DNA of 64,000 nt from Bacteroidia bacterium (GTDB lineage Bacteria > Bacteroidota > Bacteroidia > Cytophagales > JAAEPT01). Under the pieces are notes generated by a model. The model made no database searches and had not been told where the DNA came from. It saw nothing but the letters and a program-made list of their open reading frames with translations. The position numbers and the translations under genes were made by a program. The DNA lies in assembly GCA_030431525.1 (NCBI GenBank), contig JAUIJC010000021.1:1-64000 (forward strand), written 5' to 3'. This document shows positions 12,336 to 31,708 of this stretch, one piece after another. The number at the start of each line of letters is the position of its first letter. Positions within the stretch are counted from its first letter, which is position 1.

Positions 12336-13055
12336 ATGGCTGAACAAATAGGAGCACTGATTTTTAGTCACTGGTGGGTGACCTTCTTGGCAAGCCTGCT
12401 GTTTTTTGGAATGCAATATTATGGTGCCGTGGGTTTGGCAAAGTTTGTCCGTCATTTCTGGGCTTTGGAACCGATAGGAAAACTGGGGAGCCAAAAGGAG
12501 CAGGTTCGTTTTGAGCAACGCCACTCCATGGTTTCCATTCTGGTGTTCAGCCTTCAGGCAATTCCAATTCAATGGGCAGTGGCAAATGATTGGGTGAGGA
12601 TTGACTATTCGTGGAGTTGGGCGATTTTACCTGAAATGCTTGTCCTGTTTTTGTGGAACGAACTCCACTTTTATACCTGTCATCGACTGTTGCATTTTCC
12701 ATGGCTATATAATAAGGTGCATCGCGTCCATCACCTGTCCATTCACCCGACGGAATATTCCACCTACAGCTTTCATTGGATTGAGGCTTTTATGCTGGGT
12801 TCAGTGCCCTATTTGCCATTGTTGCTTTGGGATTTCCACTATCAAGCCCTGTTATTCCTTCCGCTTTCCAGCATCACTTTGAATATGTTGGGGCATTGGA
12901 ATCATGATTTGGCGCCAGAAAAACGACCGAATCATTGGTTGCGCTTTAGCTTTAGGCACAGTTTACACCATCAAAAGGTGAAGGGGAACTATGGATTCTT
13001 TTTGCCGTGGTTGGATCAGGTTTTAGGTACCTCATTGACTGGAAACAAGGATTAG
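12336..13055 (+). CDS. Fatty acid hydroxylase / sterol desaturase superfamily membrane protein
   Basis: A membrane-bound diiron oxygenase family that hydroxylates or desaturates lipid chains. The protein has 239 residues with hydrophobic segments at about 10-30, 65-85, 95-112 and 150-180. The family's histidine boxes are present: HFYTCHRLLH, HRVHHLSIHP and, near the end, HSLHHQKVKGN, with a further His pair in LGHWNHD. It starts at the only suitable ATG and has a TACCTTTG box 23 bases upstream. It is followed by the ketosynthase fusion gene, which points to a shared role in a special lipid or pigment, but the substrate cannot be read from the sequence. Confidence 0.88.
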   Translation: MAEQIGALIFSHWWVTFLASLLFFGMQYYGAVGLAKFVRHFWALEPIGKLGSQKEQVRFEQRHSMVSILVFSLQAIPIQWAVANDWVRIDYSWSWAILPEMLVLFLWNELHFYTCHRLLHFPWLYNKVHRVHHLSIHPTEYSTYSFHWIEAFMLGSVPYLPLLLWDFHYQALLFLPLSSITLNMLGHWNHDLAPEKRPNHWLRFSFRHSLHHQKVKGNYGFFLPWLDQVLGTSLTGNKD

Positions 13056-13180: not shown

Positions 13181-13277
13181 ACCACTGAGGGCACAGAGAT
13201 GAGGAGAAAAGGAGGCTGTTTTGGCTGTTTTGGATTCATGAGTCTCTTTCCCTCCGGTCCTCTGTGCTCTCCGTGGT
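13181..13277. repeat. Hairpin repeat of the ACCACNGAGGGCACAGAGA type, copy 1
   Basis: ACCACTGAGGGCACAGAGA starts at 13181 and its inverse CTCTGTGCTCTCCGTGGT ends at 13277. Copies at 29475-29544 and 59464-59528 share the same arms. It lies 23 bases upstream of the start codon of the next gene. Confidence 0.7.
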
Positions 13278-13299
13278 TCCTTTTCAAAAGCATGATTTT

Positions 13300-15165
13300 A
13301 TGAAAGACAATAAAGTATACATCACCTCGGCGGGAAGCTTCCTGCCTGGAGAGCCTGTTTCCAACGAAAAGATGGAAGCAGTTTTGGGCATGGTGAACAA
13401 TCAGCCTTCTCGCACTCGCGAATTGGTGTTGAGGCAAAACGGTATCCAACAACGGCATTACGCTCTTGACGAAAACCAAACTGCTCAATATCAGTTGAGT
13501 GAAATGACTGCCAAGGCGATTGATGATTGTTTGAAAGATGCCCCTGTGAATAAACAGGAAGTCAGCTTCCTTTCGGCGGCGACAACCCAAGGCGATTTGC
13601 CTGTGCCAGGCTTTGCCAGCATGGTTCATGGAGAGTCGGGCTTGGAGCGCTGTGAGATTTCCACCCATCACGGGGTATGTGGAAGTGGCATGATGGCGTT
13701 GAAAAACGCTTGGTTGAATGTGCGAAGCGGTGAGCATAAAACCGCTTTGGCCTGTGCTGGGGAGTTTGCCAGCCGTATGTTCAAAAAACAGCGTTTTGAG
13801 GGTCAAGAAGGAGTAGGTGAGGATGGACGCTTGCCTTTCGAGGTGGACTTTTTACGCTGGATGCTTTCGGATGGCAGTGGCGCGCTGTTGTTGCAAAACG
13901 AGGCGGCAGCAAAGGGCCTGAGCCTTGAAATCAAATGGGTGGATATCCAGTCCAATGCCCACCGTTTTGAGGAGTGCATGTATGCTGGCCAAAACAAGGA
14001 AGAGGGCAAGTCGTGGTTGGATTACAATGCTTTTTCACATGCCGATGCCGCTGGCGCCATCAATCTGAAGCAGGATATCAAGATTGTGGATAACATCGTC
14101 AAGTTGGGTGTTCAGCGTTATTTTGAGTTGATTGATGAAGGCAAGATTAAGGTGGATGCCATCGATCATTTCCTATGTCATTACTCCTCGCATTATTTCA
14201 GAAAGCCAATCATCGATTTGTTGGAGAAAGGTGGGGGCATGATTCCCGAAGAGAAATGGTACACTAATTTGTATCAACGTGGCAACACGGGTTCGGCTTC
14301 CATCTATATCATGTTGGAGGAATTCCTTCGGACAAAAGACCTGAAAGCTGGCCAGCAGGTGTTGTGCATGGTGCCCGAAAGCGGTCGTTTCCTCACTTCC
14401 TTTATGATGCTGGAAGTGGTAGAGGGTACCTCGAATAAAGCACCAAAGAACTATTACGTTGAGCCGAAGGCGCCAGAAATTCACGCTACTGGTGGCGAGG
14501 TGCAACAATGGTTGGTGCGTGAACTGACCAAGTTGTGGGTGGATTTCGAGACCCGACTCAATAAGGTGCCAGTGGTGGAGAAATTGAATCGTGGCATGTT
14601 GACCTTAGAGGAATATAAGCTGTTGATTTTGAATATCCGCCAACAGGTAATCGACGGTTCGCAGTGGATTGCCCGCGCCGCTTCCAATGTAAGCATGGAG
14701 TTCTTTGATATCCGTTCGGCCTTTATTTCACATTCGGCCGATGAGCATAAGGATTATCAAATTTTGGAGAAGAACTACCTTAACTTGGGCGGAGCCAAGG
14801 AGGACCTTTACAACACGGAAAAGAACTTGGGCAGTGAGGCTTTAAGTGCCTATATGTTTCATCGGGCCAGTCAGGCTAACCCGTTTGACTTGTTGGGAGG
14901 TATGTTCATTATCGAAGGCTTGGGCAACCGCGTGGCCGGAAAATGGGGACGCGCCATCAAGGATCAACTCGATTTGGACGACAATCAGGTTTCTTTCCTT
15001 ATTTATCACGAAAGCAGTGATGCCAACGACAATCACTTCGCCCGTTTTGAAAATGCCGTCAATTCCGAGATGCTCACCATGGAACTCGCCAAACGTGTGG
15101 TGAAAACCGCCAAAACCGTGGGCAGGTTGTATGTGATGCAGTTGGAGGAATTGGGGAATTATTGA
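13300..15165 (+). CDS. Ketosynthase III-like enzyme fused to a haem-oxygenase-like diiron domain (StlD/DarB-like)
   Basis: The protein has 621 residues from the ATG at 13300; the upstream extension to 13264 is repeat-encoded. Residues about 1-375 form a thiolase-fold condensing enzyme of the 3-oxoacyl-ACP synthase III type, with catalytic Cys127 in THHGVCGSGM, His294 in FLCHYSSHYF and Asn329 in RGNTGSAS. Residues about 395-621 are an added all-helical domain with scattered ligand-like residues (HSADEHKDY at 478-486, IIEG at 537-540, YHESSDANDNHF at 569-580), which resembles iron-containing redox enzymes with the haem oxygenase fold. Long ketosynthases of the StlD/DarB type, which join two beta-ketoacyl units on the way to dialkylresorcinol and flexirubin-like compounds, are the closest guess. 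The assignment is by motif only. Confidence 0.78.
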   Translation: MKDNKVYITSAGSFLPGEPVSNEKMEAVLGMVNNQPSRTRELVLRQNGIQQRHYALDENQTAQYQLSEMTAKAIDDCLKDAPVNKQEVSFLSAATTQGDLPVPGFASMVHGESGLERCEISTHHGVCGSGMMALKNAWLNVRSGEHKTALACAGEFASRMFKKQRFEGQEGVGEDGRLPFEVDFLRWMLSDGSGALLLQNEAAAKGLSLEIKWVDIQSNAHRFEECMYAGQNKEEGKSWLDYNAFSHADAAGAINLKQDIKIVDNIVKLGVQRYFELIDEGKIKVDAIDHFLCHYSSHYFRKPIIDLLEKGGGMIPEEKWYTNLYQRGNTGSASIYIMLEEFLRTKDLKAGQQVLCMVPESGRFLTSFMMLEVVEGTSNKAPKNYYVEPKAPEIHATGGEVQQWLVRELTKLWVDFETRLNKVPVVEKLNRGMLTLEEYKLLILNIRQQVIDGSQWIARAASNVSMEFFDIRSAFISHSADEHKDYQILEKNYLNLGGAKEDLYNTEKNLGSEALSAYMFHRASQANPFDLLGGMFIIEGLGNRVAGKWGRAIKDQLDLDDNQVSFLIYHESSDANDNHFARFENAVNSEMLTMELAKRVVKTAKTVGRLYVMQLEELGNY

Positions 15166-15170
15166 GTTGG

Positions 15171-15250
15171 GTAGCAAGTATCAAGTATCAAGAATCAAGT
15201 AGCATGATGCAGGTTGTGGTCCTGTGTCATGCTACTTGATACATGTGTCT
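15171..15250. repeat. TATCAAGTA-family hairpin repeat, copy 4
   Basis: ATCAAGTAGCATGA (from 15193) pairs perfectly with TCATGCTACTTGAT (ending 15240), with an inner AGG/CCT pair; a run of GTATCAAGTATCAAG precedes it. It separates the ketosynthase gene from the next gene, leaving only 6 bases before that start codon. Confidence 0.7.
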
Positions 15251-15256
15251 AAAACT

Positions 15257-16168
15257 ATGGACTTCCAAAAACACATCGACTATTATGAGCAAATGGAGCA
15301 CGATCCCAAGGATCCAATGCCTTGGCATGCTTTGTTTCTCGACCTAAGCATTCCTTTTGACCAAAAGGCGAAGGGTGCTTTCCTCTATGATTCGGACCGC
15401 AAGACAAGGCAGTATTTGTTGCCCTTTATGCGGGTATTGGCCCGATTGTCCATAGTCTTGATCCAAATCTTAAAGATTTTCACACCACGGTTTTTGAGCT
15501 CTTCCAAGGCATTGCATTACTGCCTGTATTGGGGTATGAAATACTGGATTACGCCCGAGGCGAACTTCCTTATCCTTCGTCATTTTGTGATGGGAAGCGA
15601 AGTCTTGCAATTCATTAAGGATAATGTGAAAGGGGCGGAGGACCAGCCCATGAATCCGCTAAAACCCTTCGAGTTAAATGAGGTCAAGAACGACTTGTTT
15701 CTGGAGCATGACCTCAATCTTTACAACTTCATTATCCGACTGAACAAGGGTCTGCGTGAGCGAGGAGAGGAAGTGGAGCGCATTGAAAGGCCAGATTTCA
15801 GCGCCCTAACTGAAGGTGATTTCCCTTTTGAGAATTTCCGTAATGGCTGGACCAACTTCCTCGATTTGAACACCGCCATTGAGATTTTCACCCCAGTTTA
15901 CCAATTCTTCCTCACGGACGGCGATTTCTGGAGGGCCAGTCACTCGCTTCAATTCGATGAGGTCATCGGCATTTACGTCGCAAAAATCCTCGGTAACCCC
16001 GAGCGTTTGGTTCACCTCAACAACAAGCATCCGATGGTTCCTGAATCAACCTTGAGGACTGGTCACCGCTTGTTGTTACACGGGCTTTCTACAGAGATTT
16101 TGCATGCGTATTTGGTGGAGAGCAAAAGGAAACAACGCGCATTAGTTGGGGAAAAGGTTGGAATGTAA
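15257..16168 (+). CDS. Unrecognised His- and Glu-rich helical protein next to the ketosynthase
   Basis: The protein has 303 residues from the ATG at 15257; the frame extends to 15224, but those codons lie in a repeat. One hydrophobic stretch at about 58-76 (VLARLSIVLIQILKIF) may be a membrane anchor. The rest reads as helical with several His/Glu pairs on helices (FLILRHFVMGSE, FLEHDLNLYNF, HSLQFDEVIG, GHRLLLHGLSTE), which might bind a metal pair. I cannot name a family with confidence. It lies 91 bases after the ketosynthase fusion on the same strand, so the two are probably co-transcribed and may act on the same product. Confidence 0.7.
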   Translation: MDFQKHIDYYEQMEHDPKDPMPWHALFLDLSIPFDQKAKGAFLYDSDRKTRQYLLPFMRVLARLSIVLIQILKIFTPRFLSSSKALHYCLYWGMKYWITPEANFLILRHFVMGSEVLQFIKDNVKGAEDQPMNPLKPFELNEVKNDLFLEHDLNLYNFIIRLNKGLRERGEEVERIERPDFSALTEGDFPFENFRNGWTNFLDLNTAIEIFTPVYQFFLTDGDFWRASHSLQFDEVIGIYVAKILGNPERLVHLNNKHPMVPESTLRTGHRLLLHGLSTEILHAYLVESKRKQRALVGEKVGM

Positions 16169-18345: not shown

Positions 18346-20769
18346 TTAAGCTACCTCAATCTTGGATTGCCCCATCAGCATATCCAAACGCTCCATGGCA
18401 TAATTGCTTGGGCTGGTAACAAACCCGAAGGTTTCTTTCCTAACGACGCCCAACTTCCTTTTTTCAATATCAGCCGAGAAGCCGAAGTCCACGATGTCGT
18501 AATTCAGTTCGCGGGATCTCACGATGCTTTGATACAAGAGCTGACGATAGATGCCGAAGTCTTGGTTGAAGTCATAGTTCAAACCAATGAGCAATGGCGT
18601 GTAGCGTGAGGATTTATGTGAGAATAGCACACCCACCAAGGCTTTGTCCTCTTTGTTGTCAAGATGGGCGAGGATGAATTCAAAATCATCCGACTTGTTC
18701 ATTTCCTTAAACAGGTTGTTTGGATAAGGGTAGAGGTTGATGCCCAAGTTGGATTTTTGAACGTTTCGATAAAGCTGGATCGCCGTCTCAAGCTCCTCTT
18801 CAGTCAACTGTTCCTTTACCGAAATGGAGACCGCGTCTCGGTTTCTGAGGATGTTTTCCCTGAAGTGTTTTCGGTTTCGTTTTGACAGGGAATTGATGTA
18901 ATCCTCCTCCGTCTGGATGTCTTTGTTGTTGTAGTAATAGTTGGAGGAAGGCATGTTGACGGACACATATCCTTTGTCCAAGAAGAAGTTTTTGAGGGCG
19001 TCGCTACAATCCACAAAGTCTCGGATAAAGGTGTACTCGGCGTTTTCTTTGGTGGCCGTTCGTTGCACATCCGAAAGCATCATGGACAAGGCCTGTTTCC
19101 AATGCGAATGGCCTTCGTTCACAAACAGGCATTTGCCTTCCGTGGCGATGGTGCCCATCGTAATGATTTTGGCAGAGAGGTAATACGGGTCTTTTTCTCG
19201 TTCCTTTTCAATAATGGCGGACACCTCCTCGTGCATCAACATATCTATTTTGCCCAAGGTTTGGGTGAAGAATGTTGCGGCGACCACCTTTTGCTTGTCC
19301 TTGACAAGGTAGTAACTGAAGTGGTAGTTTTCCTCCTCTTTCTCATTGCCACTGAACGCCTGCTCCAAGAACTTCATGGTGTCCCAGTTAAAGCAGGTTT
19401 CCTCATTGAAAATGCCATTCCATTCCTCTTTGCTAATGGCTGAAATGGACTCGTGTTTTTCGAGCTCCAGTCCCGTTTTTTCGGTTTCTGTTTTTTCCTC
19501 AATCAACGGCAGCTTGAAGGTGGTGCGCACCTCGTTCATGGAGCTATATTCCTCTTCCAAGGCCTTGTAATAGTTGCGGTCAAGGGCGGAAACAAAGTCT
19601 GCAATGTCCTGCTTTTCTAAGAGGCGATGGATGGTCACGCGGAGACCAGATTTCTTGGCGGCCACTACAGGGAAAGCGGCGAGGTTTACATAGAAGCCTT
19701 CATCATACATTTTGCGAGCGAGGTTGGCGCCTACGGCGGGCTGACCTGTACAGATGAAGTTTACAGGGCAATCATTTTCCACAATGAGTGGAACATCCGT
19801 TTCCTTGATTAAGGCGTTGAAATAATCTTGTTTGTCTCTGATGTCTTTTTGAATGATGTCAATTTCCGAGGTCATGTGGATTTCCTTGGCTGAGGCGATG
19901 GCCGCGCCTGTGTCGCCAGGAGGAAGCTGGGCGCTGAATGAACCTGGCCCACCATAAAGTTTTACGCGCAAATAGGTTTCCTCATCAGGGAAGACGACGA
20001 AAGCGCCATTGGCTCCAAATGATTTGCTTAAAGTGCCAACCAAAATCACATTGTAGGGAAGTTTTCCCAATTCACTCATCACGAAGCCTGTCCCGTGCTT
20101 GCCTTTCCAGCTTTGGCCGTGCACGTCGTCCACATAAATATGTAGGTGTGGATATTTCTTGGAAAGCTCCATCAATTCCAAGATGGGCGTCACATCTCCG
20201 TACATGGAGTACACGCCATCCACCATGTACCAAACCTTCTTGAATTTGTTGCCCGCCTGTTTCAGGGCGTCCTCCAATTGGTTAATGTCGTTGTGCTTGA
20301 TGGTATCCACCGGAACACCTTTGATTTTCACATGGTCGCAGGCGCGCACCACACTGAAATGTACCTGTTGGTCAAGCAACACCATGTCCTCCTCGGAAAC
20401 CAAATGGGGGATTACTCCGGCATGTGCCAGCGAAGAGTTCTTGGTCACCACCACAGGAGCCTGATACATTTCCCGAAGGACTTGCTCCAATTCGTCAAAA
20501 AGTGGGTGTTTGATATATGCGCTACTCAAAGGAAAGCTCGTACCATAGCGTTGGATACTTTCGCAACAGGCGTCTTTAATGGTCTGGTGTAAGCAAAGTC
20601 CGGTATAGGTGGTGGTTCCGAAGTTTTTCAACTTCTTTCCTCTAACCGTAAAGTGCCTTCCATCAAAGGCTTGGTCTTCAGCATATTGGTGGGTAACGCC
20701 CTGTTTGCGGTAACTCAAAAAGGACTGGTGGATAGTTTCCAAGACGGAATTGTGACGGATTTTGGCCAT
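18346..20769 (-). CDS. Bifunctional PLP alpha-oxoamine synthase / GNAT acyltransferase
   Basis: A protein of 807 residues. Residues about 1-405 are a pyridoxal phosphate enzyme of the serine palmitoyltransferase/KBL/AONS family, which condenses an amino acid with an acyl thioester: VDDVHGQS holds Asp214 and His217, and GTLSKSFG holds the PLP lysine at 249. Residues about 430-807 resemble the GNAT fold of the BioF2/FemAB-like type (SKRNRKHFRENILRNRD, LGINLYPYP, YDIVDFGFSADIEKRKLG). One chain could thus make an amino ketone and then acylate its amino group, as in sphingoid or sulfonolipid synthesis. That reading is an inference. The ATG at 20769 is preferred to a TTG two codons upstream. It is monocistronic with a strong terminator. 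Confidence 0.85.
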   Translation of the reverse strand: MAKIRHNSVLETIHQSFLSYRKQGVTHQYAEDQAFDGRHFTVRGKKLKNFGTTTYTGLCLHQTIKDACCESIQRYGTSFPLSSAYIKHPLFDELEQVLREMYQAPVVVTKNSSLAHAGVIPHLVSEEDMVLLDQQVHFSVVRACDHVKIKGVPVDTIKHNDINQLEDALKQAGNKFKKVWYMVDGVYSMYGDVTPILELMELSKKYPHLHIYVDDVHGQSWKGKHGTGFVMSELGKLPYNVILVGTLSKSFGANGAFVVFPDEETYLRVKLYGGPGSFSAQLPPGDTGAAIASAKEIHMTSEIDIIQKDIRDKQDYFNALIKETDVPLIVENDCPVNFICTGQPAVGANLARKMYDEGFYVNLAAFPVVAAKKSGLRVTIHRLLEKQDIADFVSALDRNYYKALEEEYSSMNEVRTTFKLPLIEEKTETEKTGLELEKHESISAISKEEWNGIFNEETCFNWDTMKFLEQAFSGNEKEEENYHFSYYLVKDKQKVVAATFFTQTLGKIDMLMHEEVSAIIEKEREKDPYYLSAKIITMGTIATEGKCLFVNEGHSHWKQALSMMLSDVQRTATKENAEYTFIRDFVDCSDALKNFFLDKGYVSVNMPSSNYYYNNKDIQTEEDYINSLSKRNRKHFRENILRNRDAVSISVKEQLTEEELETAIQLYRNVQKSNLGINLYPYPNNLFKEMNKSDDFEFILAHLDNKEDKALVGVLFSHKSSRYTPLLIGLNYDFNQDFGIYRQLLYQSIVRSRELNYDIVDFGFSADIEKRKLGVVRKETFGFVTSPSNYAMERLDMLMGQSKIEVA

Positions 20770-29599: not shown

Positions 29600-31708
29600 A
29601 TGAAAAAGCAACTACTATTCATTTTCAGTCTTTGTTTGTCCTTGCTTGCCCAAGCCCAAGATTTTAGAATGCTTGAGGCAAGAGGCTTGGACGCCATCAC
29701 CCTTGACTTTAGTCAGGATGGAAACCTCCTCGCTGTTGGTGGCGGTGGAGGGCAAGTCATTGTATGGGACGTTCCACGTGGGGAGGTGCTCACCGAAATG
29801 GACGGCCATGAGGATATGGTGTTGGATGTGGCGTTCAGCCCAGATGCTTACTATGTAGCATCCGCCAGCGCCGACAATTCCATCCATGTTTGGAATGTGA
29901 CCCAAGGCTTTTTGGAAAAGCGTTTTACTGGCCACACCGCTGAGGTTACTTCTTTGGCCTTTAGCCTCGACGGCAAATACCTTTTTAGCGGTAGCGCGGA
30001 CCATTCCATCTCCGTTTGGGACTTGAACAAAAATATGAAGCTTACTGAGCTTCGTGGTCACCGCGAGGCTGTATCAAGCTTGGCCATTACGCCTGCCGGC
30101 GATAAGGTGGCTTCTGGTTCTTATGATGGCAAGGTGAAAATCTGGGATGTTAAGACTTTCAGTGAGTTTGCATCCATCGATATTAAAGGCAAGCAGATTC
30201 GTGCCTTGGATTTCAGCTTGGACGGAAAATCATTGGTGGTTTCAACCGACGACAAAGCGGTCCGTGTCCTTGATATGGAGACTTTGACACCAACCTTATT
30301 GATGTTGGGGCACAAGGACGTGGCCTACGATGTAGATTTCAGCGCCGATGGCAAATGGATTTTCAGTGCTGGATTGGACAACAAAATCATTGTTTGGGAT
30401 GCCGAAACGGGCATGCAACACAAGGAATATCCTAAAGTTGGTAAGAATGGTTTGGTGGTGATGTCCGCCAGTTCCCAAGGCGATTACTTGGCCGTAGCGA
30501 ATTTCACCGACAAGATTAAGCTCTATAAAACGGGTTATTTGGACATCAAACCAGCCAAGTCCCGTGTGATGGCGCAGACTCATAAGAAAGCACAACCTGA
30601 TTACACCAAACCAACTAAAACGGTGTTGGTGCATGACAAGACTGCTCCACAGGTGACGATTGTTCAGCCCGCCACCGAGTCAGGAAAGCCTTTCCTTTGG
30701 CTGGAGAAAGACTTGACGGTAAAAGGCCAATGTTCCTCAAAAAATGGTTTGTATGAGCTGACCATCAACAAACAGGAAGTGTTGGTTGACGAGAATGGTC
30801 GCTTTGATTTCCCTTTAAAGCTGGCTTTCGGAAACAATACCGTGGAAGTGAAGGCGGTGGATATCTTCAACAATGTGACCACCCAGACTTTTGTGGTGCA
30901 ACGCCAGTTGAAAATCGATGAGTACAACGATACCACAGCCCGCTTTGGTAAGGACTACGCACTTATCATTTGTACCGACGAGTACGATAATTACAATAAC
31001 CTGAGCAACCCTGTGTTCGACGGTGAATCCATCGGCCAAGAGCTCAAGGACAATTTTGGTTTTGAGGTAGAGGTTATCAAAAACCCATCAAGGCTGGAAA
31101 TCTATCAGGCTTTGAGGGCCTATGGCAAACGTCAATATTCCGATGATGACCAGTTGTTCATTTTCATTGCTGGACATGGTGAGTTTGATGAAGTTTTCCA
31201 CGAAGGGTATTTGGTGCCAAAGGATGCTCAGGATAACGATGAGGTACGTGCTTCTCTCATCTCACATTCCAATTTGAAAACCATTGTGAACAACATTCCT
31301 TGCAAGCATATTTTCCTCACCATGGATGCTTGTTTTGGAGGAACTTTGGGCTACAATATTGACCGTCAAAACAGGGTGATTGCTACGCGTCGAACCAGTT
31401 CGGAGCAAGCCTCCTTTATTCAAAAGCGTTTGGAGCCGACCACACGACAGTTTCTTACTTCTGGAGGACAGCAATACGTTCCAGATGGCATTGCAGGTCA
31501 TCATTCGCCATTTGCCTCAAAATTCATAGAGAGTCTTCAGGCAGGAGCAGGTAAGGATGATATCCTTGTATTGGATGAACTCTACAGTTATTTGGAAGGT
31601 GTGAAACCACATCCAAATTCAGGGACATTTGGGCGAAACCAACACGGCAGTGATTTCTTGTTTATCAGACAGAATCAAGAAGCTCAAGTTGGAAGTAACG
31701 AGCACTAA
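29600..31708 (+). CDS. Exported WD40-repeat protein with caspase-like (C14) peptidase domain
   Basis: The protein has 702 residues. A signal peptide (KKQLLFIFSLCLSLLAQAQ) precedes seven WD40 blades (about 25-310), each with a GH...D...W[DN] pattern such as GHTAEV...SGSADHSISVWD; this would make one closed propeller. A beta-sandwich linker follows (about 345-440). Residues about 450-690 are a C14 caspase-fold peptidase with the His-Cys dyad: His526 in FIAGHGEFD and Cys578 in MDACFGG. The protein thus looks like a periplasmic or surface protease guided by a protein-binding propeller. There is no T9SS tag. It is followed by a terminator. Substrate unknown. Confidence 0.9.
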   Translation: MKKQLLFIFSLCLSLLAQAQDFRMLEARGLDAITLDFSQDGNLLAVGGGGGQVIVWDVPRGEVLTEMDGHEDMVLDVAFSPDAYYVASASADNSIHVWNVTQGFLEKRFTGHTAEVTSLAFSLDGKYLFSGSADHSISVWDLNKNMKLTELRGHREAVSSLAITPAGDKVASGSYDGKVKIWDVKTFSEFASIDIKGKQIRALDFSLDGKSLVVSTDDKAVRVLDMETLTPTLLMLGHKDVAYDVDFSADGKWIFSAGLDNKIIVWDAETGMQHKEYPKVGKNGLVVMSASSQGDYLAVANFTDKIKLYKTGYLDIKPAKSRVMAQTHKKAQPDYTKPTKTVLVHDKTAPQVTIVQPATESGKPFLWLEKDLTVKGQCSSKNGLYELTINKQEVLVDENGRFDFPLKLAFGNNTVEVKAVDIFNNVTTQTFVVQRQLKIDEYNDTTARFGKDYALIICTDEYDNYNNLSNPVFDGESIGQELKDNFGFEVEVIKNPSRLEIYQALRAYGKRQYSDDDQLFIFIAGHGEFDEVFHEGYLVPKDAQDNDEVRASLISHSNLKTIVNNIPCKHIFLTMDACFGGTLGYNIDRQNRVIATRRTSSEQASFIQKRLEPTTRQFLTSGGQQYVPDGIAGHHSPFASKFIESLQAGAGKDDILVLDELYSYLEGVKPHPNSGTFGRNQHGSDFLFIRQNQEAQVGSNEH

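Follow-up and report, generated by a model that had tools for sequence, protein, structure and literature searches.

What does a protein make that joins an alpha-oxoamine synthase (AOS) to an acyltransferase-like domain in one chain, and what is the product for? A gene in the window, the whole stretch of 64,000 nucleotides analysed here, raises this question, and a sequence-only reading of it had proposed that one protein makes and N-acylates an amino ketone for sphingolipid, sulfonolipid or other aminolipid synthesis. At NCBI, such proteins presumably go by a product name along the lines of 'bifunctional aminotransferase/GNAT', and the open-access literature yielded no recognisable paper on an AOS-FemX or AOS-GNAT fusion and no paper containing 'DUF7793' or 'PRK07505', two names that recur below. 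Judged from sequence and structural models, we give the fused protein about an even chance of being a bifunctional enzyme that synthesises a small, diffusible signal.

Two domains in one chain

The gene lies on the minus strand at 18346..20769, with its ATG at 20769, and its open reading frame and translation, Pfam matches and an AlphaFold model of the full chain (m7315496dc9d2; mean pLDDT 88.8) describe a fused AOS/FemABX-like protein of 807 aa, confirming that a single frame holds both of the domains first noticed in the sequence. Residues 1-410 (19540..20769, minus strand) form the AOS domain, with a Pfam match to Aminotran_1_2 at residues 50-391 (E 7e-22). A linker at about residues 411-427 (19489..19539, minus strand) is poorly conserved (alignment A1), with pLDDT dropping in a block past residue 420, and residues 428-807 (18346..19488, minus strand) form a FemABX-like double-GNAT domain (model m82b6314b27fa), matched by FemAB_like (PF04339; residues 441-701, 33.2 bits, cut-off 27) and Acetyltransf_6 (PF13480; residues 631-770, 22.6 bits, cut-off 22). 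Because the same genome encodes a second fused protein elsewhere (796 aa, 35% identical) and the best 80 of 567 relatives are likewise fused, the fusion in the window is no artefact of assembly or frame.

The PLP-site residues that had been recognised in the N-terminal half are all present and extend to its homologues: His137, Asp214, His217, Lys249 and Arg377, which we take by analogy to be the stacking His, the Asp, the His, the Schiff-base Lys and the carboxylate Arg of an AOS site, are unchanged in 59/59 aligned fused homologues (alignment A2, its 59 sequences drawn from 87 cluster rows; an earlier tree used 89 cluster rows minus L047, which is broken, and L077, which has no start). The expected Schiff-base lysine, Lys249 (codon 20023..20025, minus strand), sits in the motif GTLSKSFG. 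Model residues 2-402 best match the solved AOS Alb29 (8xha; Z 45.9, rmsd 2.2, 385 residues), and other matches include serine palmitoyltransferase (SPT; 2jg2, Z 43.2), a cysteate enzyme (7u7h, Z 39.9) and 2wk9 (Z 38.2); those read among the matches listed are AOS-family enzymes. By its residues and modelled fold the N-terminal half is a member of the AOS family.

The nearest NCBIfam model for this half is PRK07505 (257.6 bits, below the cut-off of 342), and its scores against SPT, CqsA, KBL and BioF models are all well below the cut-offs. For SPT they are 125.4 bits with NF047600 (cut-off 640) and, with the proteobacterial models, 131.4 bits for NF047599 (cut-off 500) and 113.6 for NF047603 (cut-off 670); the signal synthase model PRK07179 (CqsA/LqsA) is matched weakly (71.9 bits, cut-off 428), and no cysteate-enzyme model appears among the profile-model matches. 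A separate, SPT-like AOS is also encoded in the window genome (295 bits, likewise below cut-off). In a FastTree tree of 74 AOS, a branch with support 100 separates this protein and 20 controls, which are other Bacteroidota AOS with SPT activity unproven for them, from every fused and free-standing member of the clade considered here. The window copy, on a long branch, groups with DUF7793-adjoining fusions, with L172, L060 and L092 nearest by path. At the amino-acid gate, residue 81 by alignment with Alb29, Leu is found in 58/59 fused homologues; the available part of PMC11906848 gives Leu for Alb29 and Ser for SPT.

The C-terminal half had been read as a GNAT fold, an assignment that holds and can be refined to a double-GNAT fold of the FemABX-like kind. 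Modelled alone (pLDDT 91.5), it best matches Sbb17 (9wqw; Z 22.5, rmsd 3.1, 274 residues), together with FemX (6snr; Z 22.5, rmsd 4.8, 306 residues), Sba18 (Z 22.4), FemA (1lrz; Z 21.9) and Weissella FemX (Z 20.4-21.1), and Foldseek also ranked FemX first; lower matches are tandem GNATs (Z 17.3-17.9), N-myristoyltransferases (about 17) and MprF (17.1). The model most resembles the aminoacyl-tRNA-dependent FemX, FemA and Sbb17, being closer to these than to CoA-dependent tandem GNATs or N-myristoyltransferases; its fold is no proof of donor identity. Ceramide synthase is not in the list of fold matches, an absence that excludes nothing. By hhalign, this half aligned with FemAB-family proteins at 95.4% probability (E 1.8e-8, 198 columns), the target being seven PF02388-matching proteins of which five are weak members, and with an unrelated kinase, as control, at 0.1%. 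Because no solved structure was matched by sequence at E 10 or better, the FemABX case for this half rests on fold and profile comparisons only; PF02388 itself gave no match to the window protein at E 0.001.

CoA-dependent GNATs have a pyrophosphate loop of the form Q/R-x-x-G-x-G/A. This loop has no shared position in the 59 aligned sequences, where matches occur as if by chance in five sequences and four different columns. Lys770 (codon 18460..18462, minus strand) is invariant in 59/59, within a K-x-x-L-G motif whose spacing resembles that of the K-x-x-F-G motif holding the lysine in FemAB relatives. In the accessible text of PMC12945691, one lysine is used by FemX (Lys305) and by DhpH-C (Lys329). 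Lys770 is a candidate counterpart of FemX Lys305, a correspondence that is only inferred because the profile alignment ends short of it.

Relatives, neighbouring regulators and mobile elements

A scan of named genomes gave 567 confirmed relatives, of which the best 80 are fusions matched over almost the whole query at 40-45% identity, mostly from Flavobacteriaceae with some from Cytophagales. One copy (L113), on a contig filed as Rickettsiales, groups with Marinoscillum and probably comes from a mislabelled metagenome bin. In the copy of the flavobacterial genome G057 (L047:8934-11361), stops split the gene into two frames. With the paralogue as query, 67 of 395 genomes of the class matched at 1e-50; the proteins matched include further fusions, of about 800 aa, as well as same-clade AOS of about 430 aa that are free-standing and have no second domain. 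Among the nearest relatives of the window genome, 3/39 genomes matched at this threshold, one of the three being the window genome itself. A plasmid scan returned 573 matching records, none of which covers more than 80% of the query; in the 25 of 573 listed, the AOS half alone is covered, and of two plasmid contexts one has fatty-acid and carboxylase genes and the other is without annotation. In a Rosetta-stone test, a homologue of the C-terminal domain lay within three ORFs in 0/20 free-standing AOS loci, and the idea that the fusion arose by the joining of two neighbouring genes was rejected on this ground. Distant free-standing homologues of the domain occur elsewhere in 10/20 of these genomes (E 1e-15 to 3e-6), in mixed contexts that point to no function.

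Sensor and regulator genes recur beside members of this clade. A signalling neighbour lies within three ORFs in 80/80 fusions of the window type (the best 80 of 567) and in 20/20 further fusions, one of which (L172) is itself of window type, compared with 2/20 control AOS from the same phylum, hand-picked from a longer list and spread over 17 genomes (Fisher test of the further fusions against controls, 3e-9). Within the same distance, a kinase or receiver gene was found for 15/20 free-standing AOS (7e-5 against controls); these Fisher values are rough because the loci are related. The fused relatives combined have a DUF7793, PAS-AraC or kinase/receiver gene adjoining in 100/100 loci. DUF7793 is the next ORF upstream, and divergent, in 80/80 of the best 80 of 567 fusions, and 77/80 have a PAS-AraC regulator within the fetched stretch. 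Matches to a BLAST panel of neighbours, which was derived from the test loci themselves, were to DUF7793 in 18, to a histidine kinase in 19 and to a response regulator in 16 of the 20 further fusions, and to a histidine kinase in 14 and a receiver in 12 of the 20 free-standing loci, with at least one of these two in 15; both sets of 20 were picked from longer lists and include some genomes twice. By Pfam, representatives of the neighbours carry PAS, HisKA, HATPase_c, Response_reg, GerE and HTH_18 domains.

The regulators differ between the two forms of the enzyme. A regulator is present in 94 fused loci, and in 92 of these the nearest one is without a membrane segment, whereas in 12/13 free-standing loci it has 2-5 such segments (p 5e-13 against the fused loci, with ORFs called by length only and membrane segments by a hydropathy threshold); the extra domain therefore accompanies a different type of sensor. 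Two motifs were also common to stretches before the fused gene: GAAAACTGG in 18/80 intergenic stretches (L068 and related loci) and AAAACTGGT in 19/80, again in related loci, each with 0 occurrences in shuffles. The first is a possible operator before fused genes; it was not seen in the upstream stretch of the window copy.

On the downstream side, RteC is the next ORF in 55/80 of the best 80 of 567 fusions, and TraG/TraM-family clusters lie inside the fetched stretch in 23/80; judged from such sequence surroundings, many fused relatives are cargo of conjugative elements. Other neighbours in the same 80 are SusC/SusD-type (62), MauE-type (54), DUF6520 (52) and peptidase (52) clusters. Beside most element-borne fusions (L042-L046, L052-L131) are genes for a SusC/SusD-type pair, a MauE-type membrane protein, a DUF6520 small peptide and a peptidase, the last being of S9, M16 or met-zincin type. 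In the 15/80 loci without mobile-element and SusCD genes, DUF7793 is kept in 15/15 and PAS-AraC in 13/15.

Neither the window copy nor its in-genome paralogue has a signalling neighbour within three ORFs, and a sensor-kinase panel match, adjoining in 19/20 further fusions and 14/20 free-standing AOS, adjoins neither of them. This missing sensor is the main gap in reading the product as a signal and, because it concerns both fused copies, makes that inference indirect for the window organism. The window genome (4.24 Mb) has 18 DUF7793 domains, compared with 0 in 14 control genomes; in the 14 stretches fetched around its DUF7793 hits, neither kinases nor receivers of the panel nor PAS-AraC genes were found. 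In the window itself, an FA_hydroxylase gene (12336-13055, Pfam match, on the strand opposite to the fused gene), a StlD/DarB-type ketosynthase joined in one chain to an iron enzyme domain of haem-oxygenase-like type (13264-15165, plus strand; 428.9 bits, cut-off 450; PF14518, E 3.4e-7) and, directly behind the latter, a gene for a DUF6999 protein (15224-16168, plus strand; 401.5 bits) may belong together as a gene group for a lipid or a resorcinol. Farther along (29600-31708, plus strand), a single chain combines WD40-like repeats with a caspase-like peptidase behind them, as seen by eye in the translation.

Candidate products and uses

Because relatives nearly always adjoin sensor genes, a chemical signal is a more probable product than a membrane lipid. 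The best reading is an autoinducer-type synthase that would make an alpha-aminoketone and then N-acylate or N-aminoacylate it; as chemistry, amino ketone formation followed by N-acylation in one chain is the simplest reading, plausible and in keeping with both modelled domains. From its fold and residues, the PLP domain would catalyse a condensation between an acyl thioester and an amino acid with loss of CO2, and the FemABX-like domain, from its fold, would acylate the resulting amine, using either aminoacyl-tRNA as source of an aminoacyl group or a fatty acyl donor. The product would then be read by DUF7793 and a cytosolic PAS regulator, either PAS-AraC or a PAS histidine kinase with its response regulator, as the neighbourhoods of the relatives suggest; in the window organism, with no sensor adjacent to either copy, it would have to be read in trans. 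Against a signal stand the bare neighbourhoods of these two copies, the matches in just three of the 39 nearest relatives, the five of 20 free-standing AOS without a signalling neighbour and the weak PRK07179 score. Moreover, the relatives are not independent, the test loci supplied the panel, the DUF7793 family is common, with 18 copies in the window genome, and the adjoining regulators could also control a metabolite that is not a signal.

In one alternative, the product is a secreted secondary metabolite (antibiotic, metallophore or enzyme inhibitor) and the adjacent regulators control its production rather than its detection. We consider it unlikely. The closest solved AOS, Alb29, does belong to a natural-product pathway, the closest C-terminal folds, Sbb17 and Sba18, are peptide synthases that depend on aminoacyl-tRNA and were solved with streptothrisamine, and the SusC/SusD-type, MauE-type, DUF6520 and peptidase clusters of the relatives would suit it; however, no further biosynthetic gene was found among the conserved neighbour clusters read, and the 15/80 loci without SusCD and mobile genes still have DUF7793 and mostly PAS-AraC. 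The lipid destination of the sequence-only reading, an N-acylated amino ketone toward a sphingo-, sulfono- or other aminolipid with the second domain using acyl-ACP or acyl-CoA as CerS does, has little probability in our view and did not find support. The AOS fold is common to SPT and the cysteate enzyme; in Caulobacter, the available portions of PMC11324152 and PMC11087976 indicate that ceramide needs Spt and the N-acyltransferase CerS and that N-acylation may precede reduction; and the FA_hydroxylase and ketosynthase genes lie 3-8 kb from the window copy, on the opposite strand. Against this, all three SPT cut-offs are missed by far, the window AOS falls outside the clade of 20 other AOS, the gate residue is that of Alb29 rather than the Ser of SPT (PMC11906848, in the part available), and the conserved neighbours of relatives are sensors and regulators, with no lipid genes.

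The frequent RteC and TraG/TraM-family neighbours, together with the G057 copy disrupted by stops, would also fit a gene that serves conjugative elements in regulation or transfer; its product would act through RteC to set the timing of excision or transfer, and chromosomal copies, that of the window among them, would be domesticated leftovers. This is improbable: 15/80 named loci and the window are without such genes in the fetched stretch, and no conjugation cluster was seen among the shared neighbours of free-standing AOS (names, by eye). It would moreover be a different role rather than a different chemistry, compatible with a synthase of a signal.

Within the preferred reading, that of a signal, an N-acyl amino ketone is the plainer product, and analogy suggests a bolder one, a pyrazinone. 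The protein would be a dedicated one-chain synthase of an autoinducer resembling DPO or AI-3, sensed by PAS-AraC or PAS-kinase proteins; synthase and sensor would be carried through Bacteroidota by conjugative elements, beside rteC. We advance this proposal tentatively and hold it to be doubtful. The alpha-aminoketone of the AOS domain would be N-aminoacylated from aminoacyl-tRNA by the FemX-like domain and then close to a pyrazinone, which the neighbouring cytosolic PAS regulators would detect as VqmA does DPO. Pyrazinone signals, DPO among them, have an N-aminoacyl aminoketone as their direct precursor, and for DPO no dedicated synthase is known (PMC12930378; PMC10979472); because DPO is said to have none, a pyrazinone synthase here would, if true, be the missing kind.

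The AOS clade described here has free-standing and fused members, gene order links it to two kinds of sensor, and conjugative elements carry many of its copies. Quorum sensing by small molecules has been little charted in Bacteroidota, and a signal product would open cell-cell signalling in this major phylum with a possible link to horizontal gene transfer. Use of aminoacyl-tRNA by the FemX-like domain would, if confirmed, give N-aminoacyl aminoketones and pyrazinones a genetically dedicated route.

Comparison with known systems

Alb29, of albogrisin biosynthesis, is the nearest solved AOS by sequence (E 3.6e-33) and by fold, and has the same Leu at the gate position as the fused homologues; it differs in having no second domain, and is not known to have a sensor link. 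It is a Streptomyces enzyme with a single domain of about 400 aa and uses L-glutamate (PMC11906848, in the part available). With FemABX proteins and the natural-product aminoacyl-tRNA transferases (FemX, FemA, Sbb17, VlmA, DhpH-C), the C-terminal half shares a profile match, the conserved Lys in its K-x-x-[FL]-G motif and the double-GNAT fold (Z 20.4-22.5 for FemX, FemA, Sbb17 and Sba18), but it sits behind an AOS in one chain and leaves PF02388 unmatched at E 0.001.

CqsA and LqsA, as described in the available part of PMC3376566, are AOS-type autoinducer synthases encoded beside the sensor kinases CqsS and LqsS, which have six membrane helices, and their signals are alpha-hydroxyketones or amino forms of these. 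The clade described here shares with them the AOS fold (2wk9, Z 38.2) and, in most of the free-standing relatives and further fusions, the placing of a synthase beside a sensor kinase, with a receiver. The free-standing relatives, mostly adjoining membrane histidine kinases, look like the layout of CqsA/CqsS and LqsA/LqsS in another phylum. In contrast, the window AOS half falls below the PRK07179 cut-off, the fused form carries a further domain and goes with PAS sensors that are cytosolic, and the window copy is without an adjoining sensor.

VqmA is a PAS-HTH regulator, and regulators of PAS type likewise lie beside the fused relatives. With the DPO and AI-3 pyrazinones, the predicted common chemistry would be the joining of an aminoketone and an aminoacyl group followed by ring closure. 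DPO is made without a dedicated synthase, Tdh giving aminoacetone and adenylate-forming enzymes giving Ala-AMP, as the accessible text of PMC12930378 has it.
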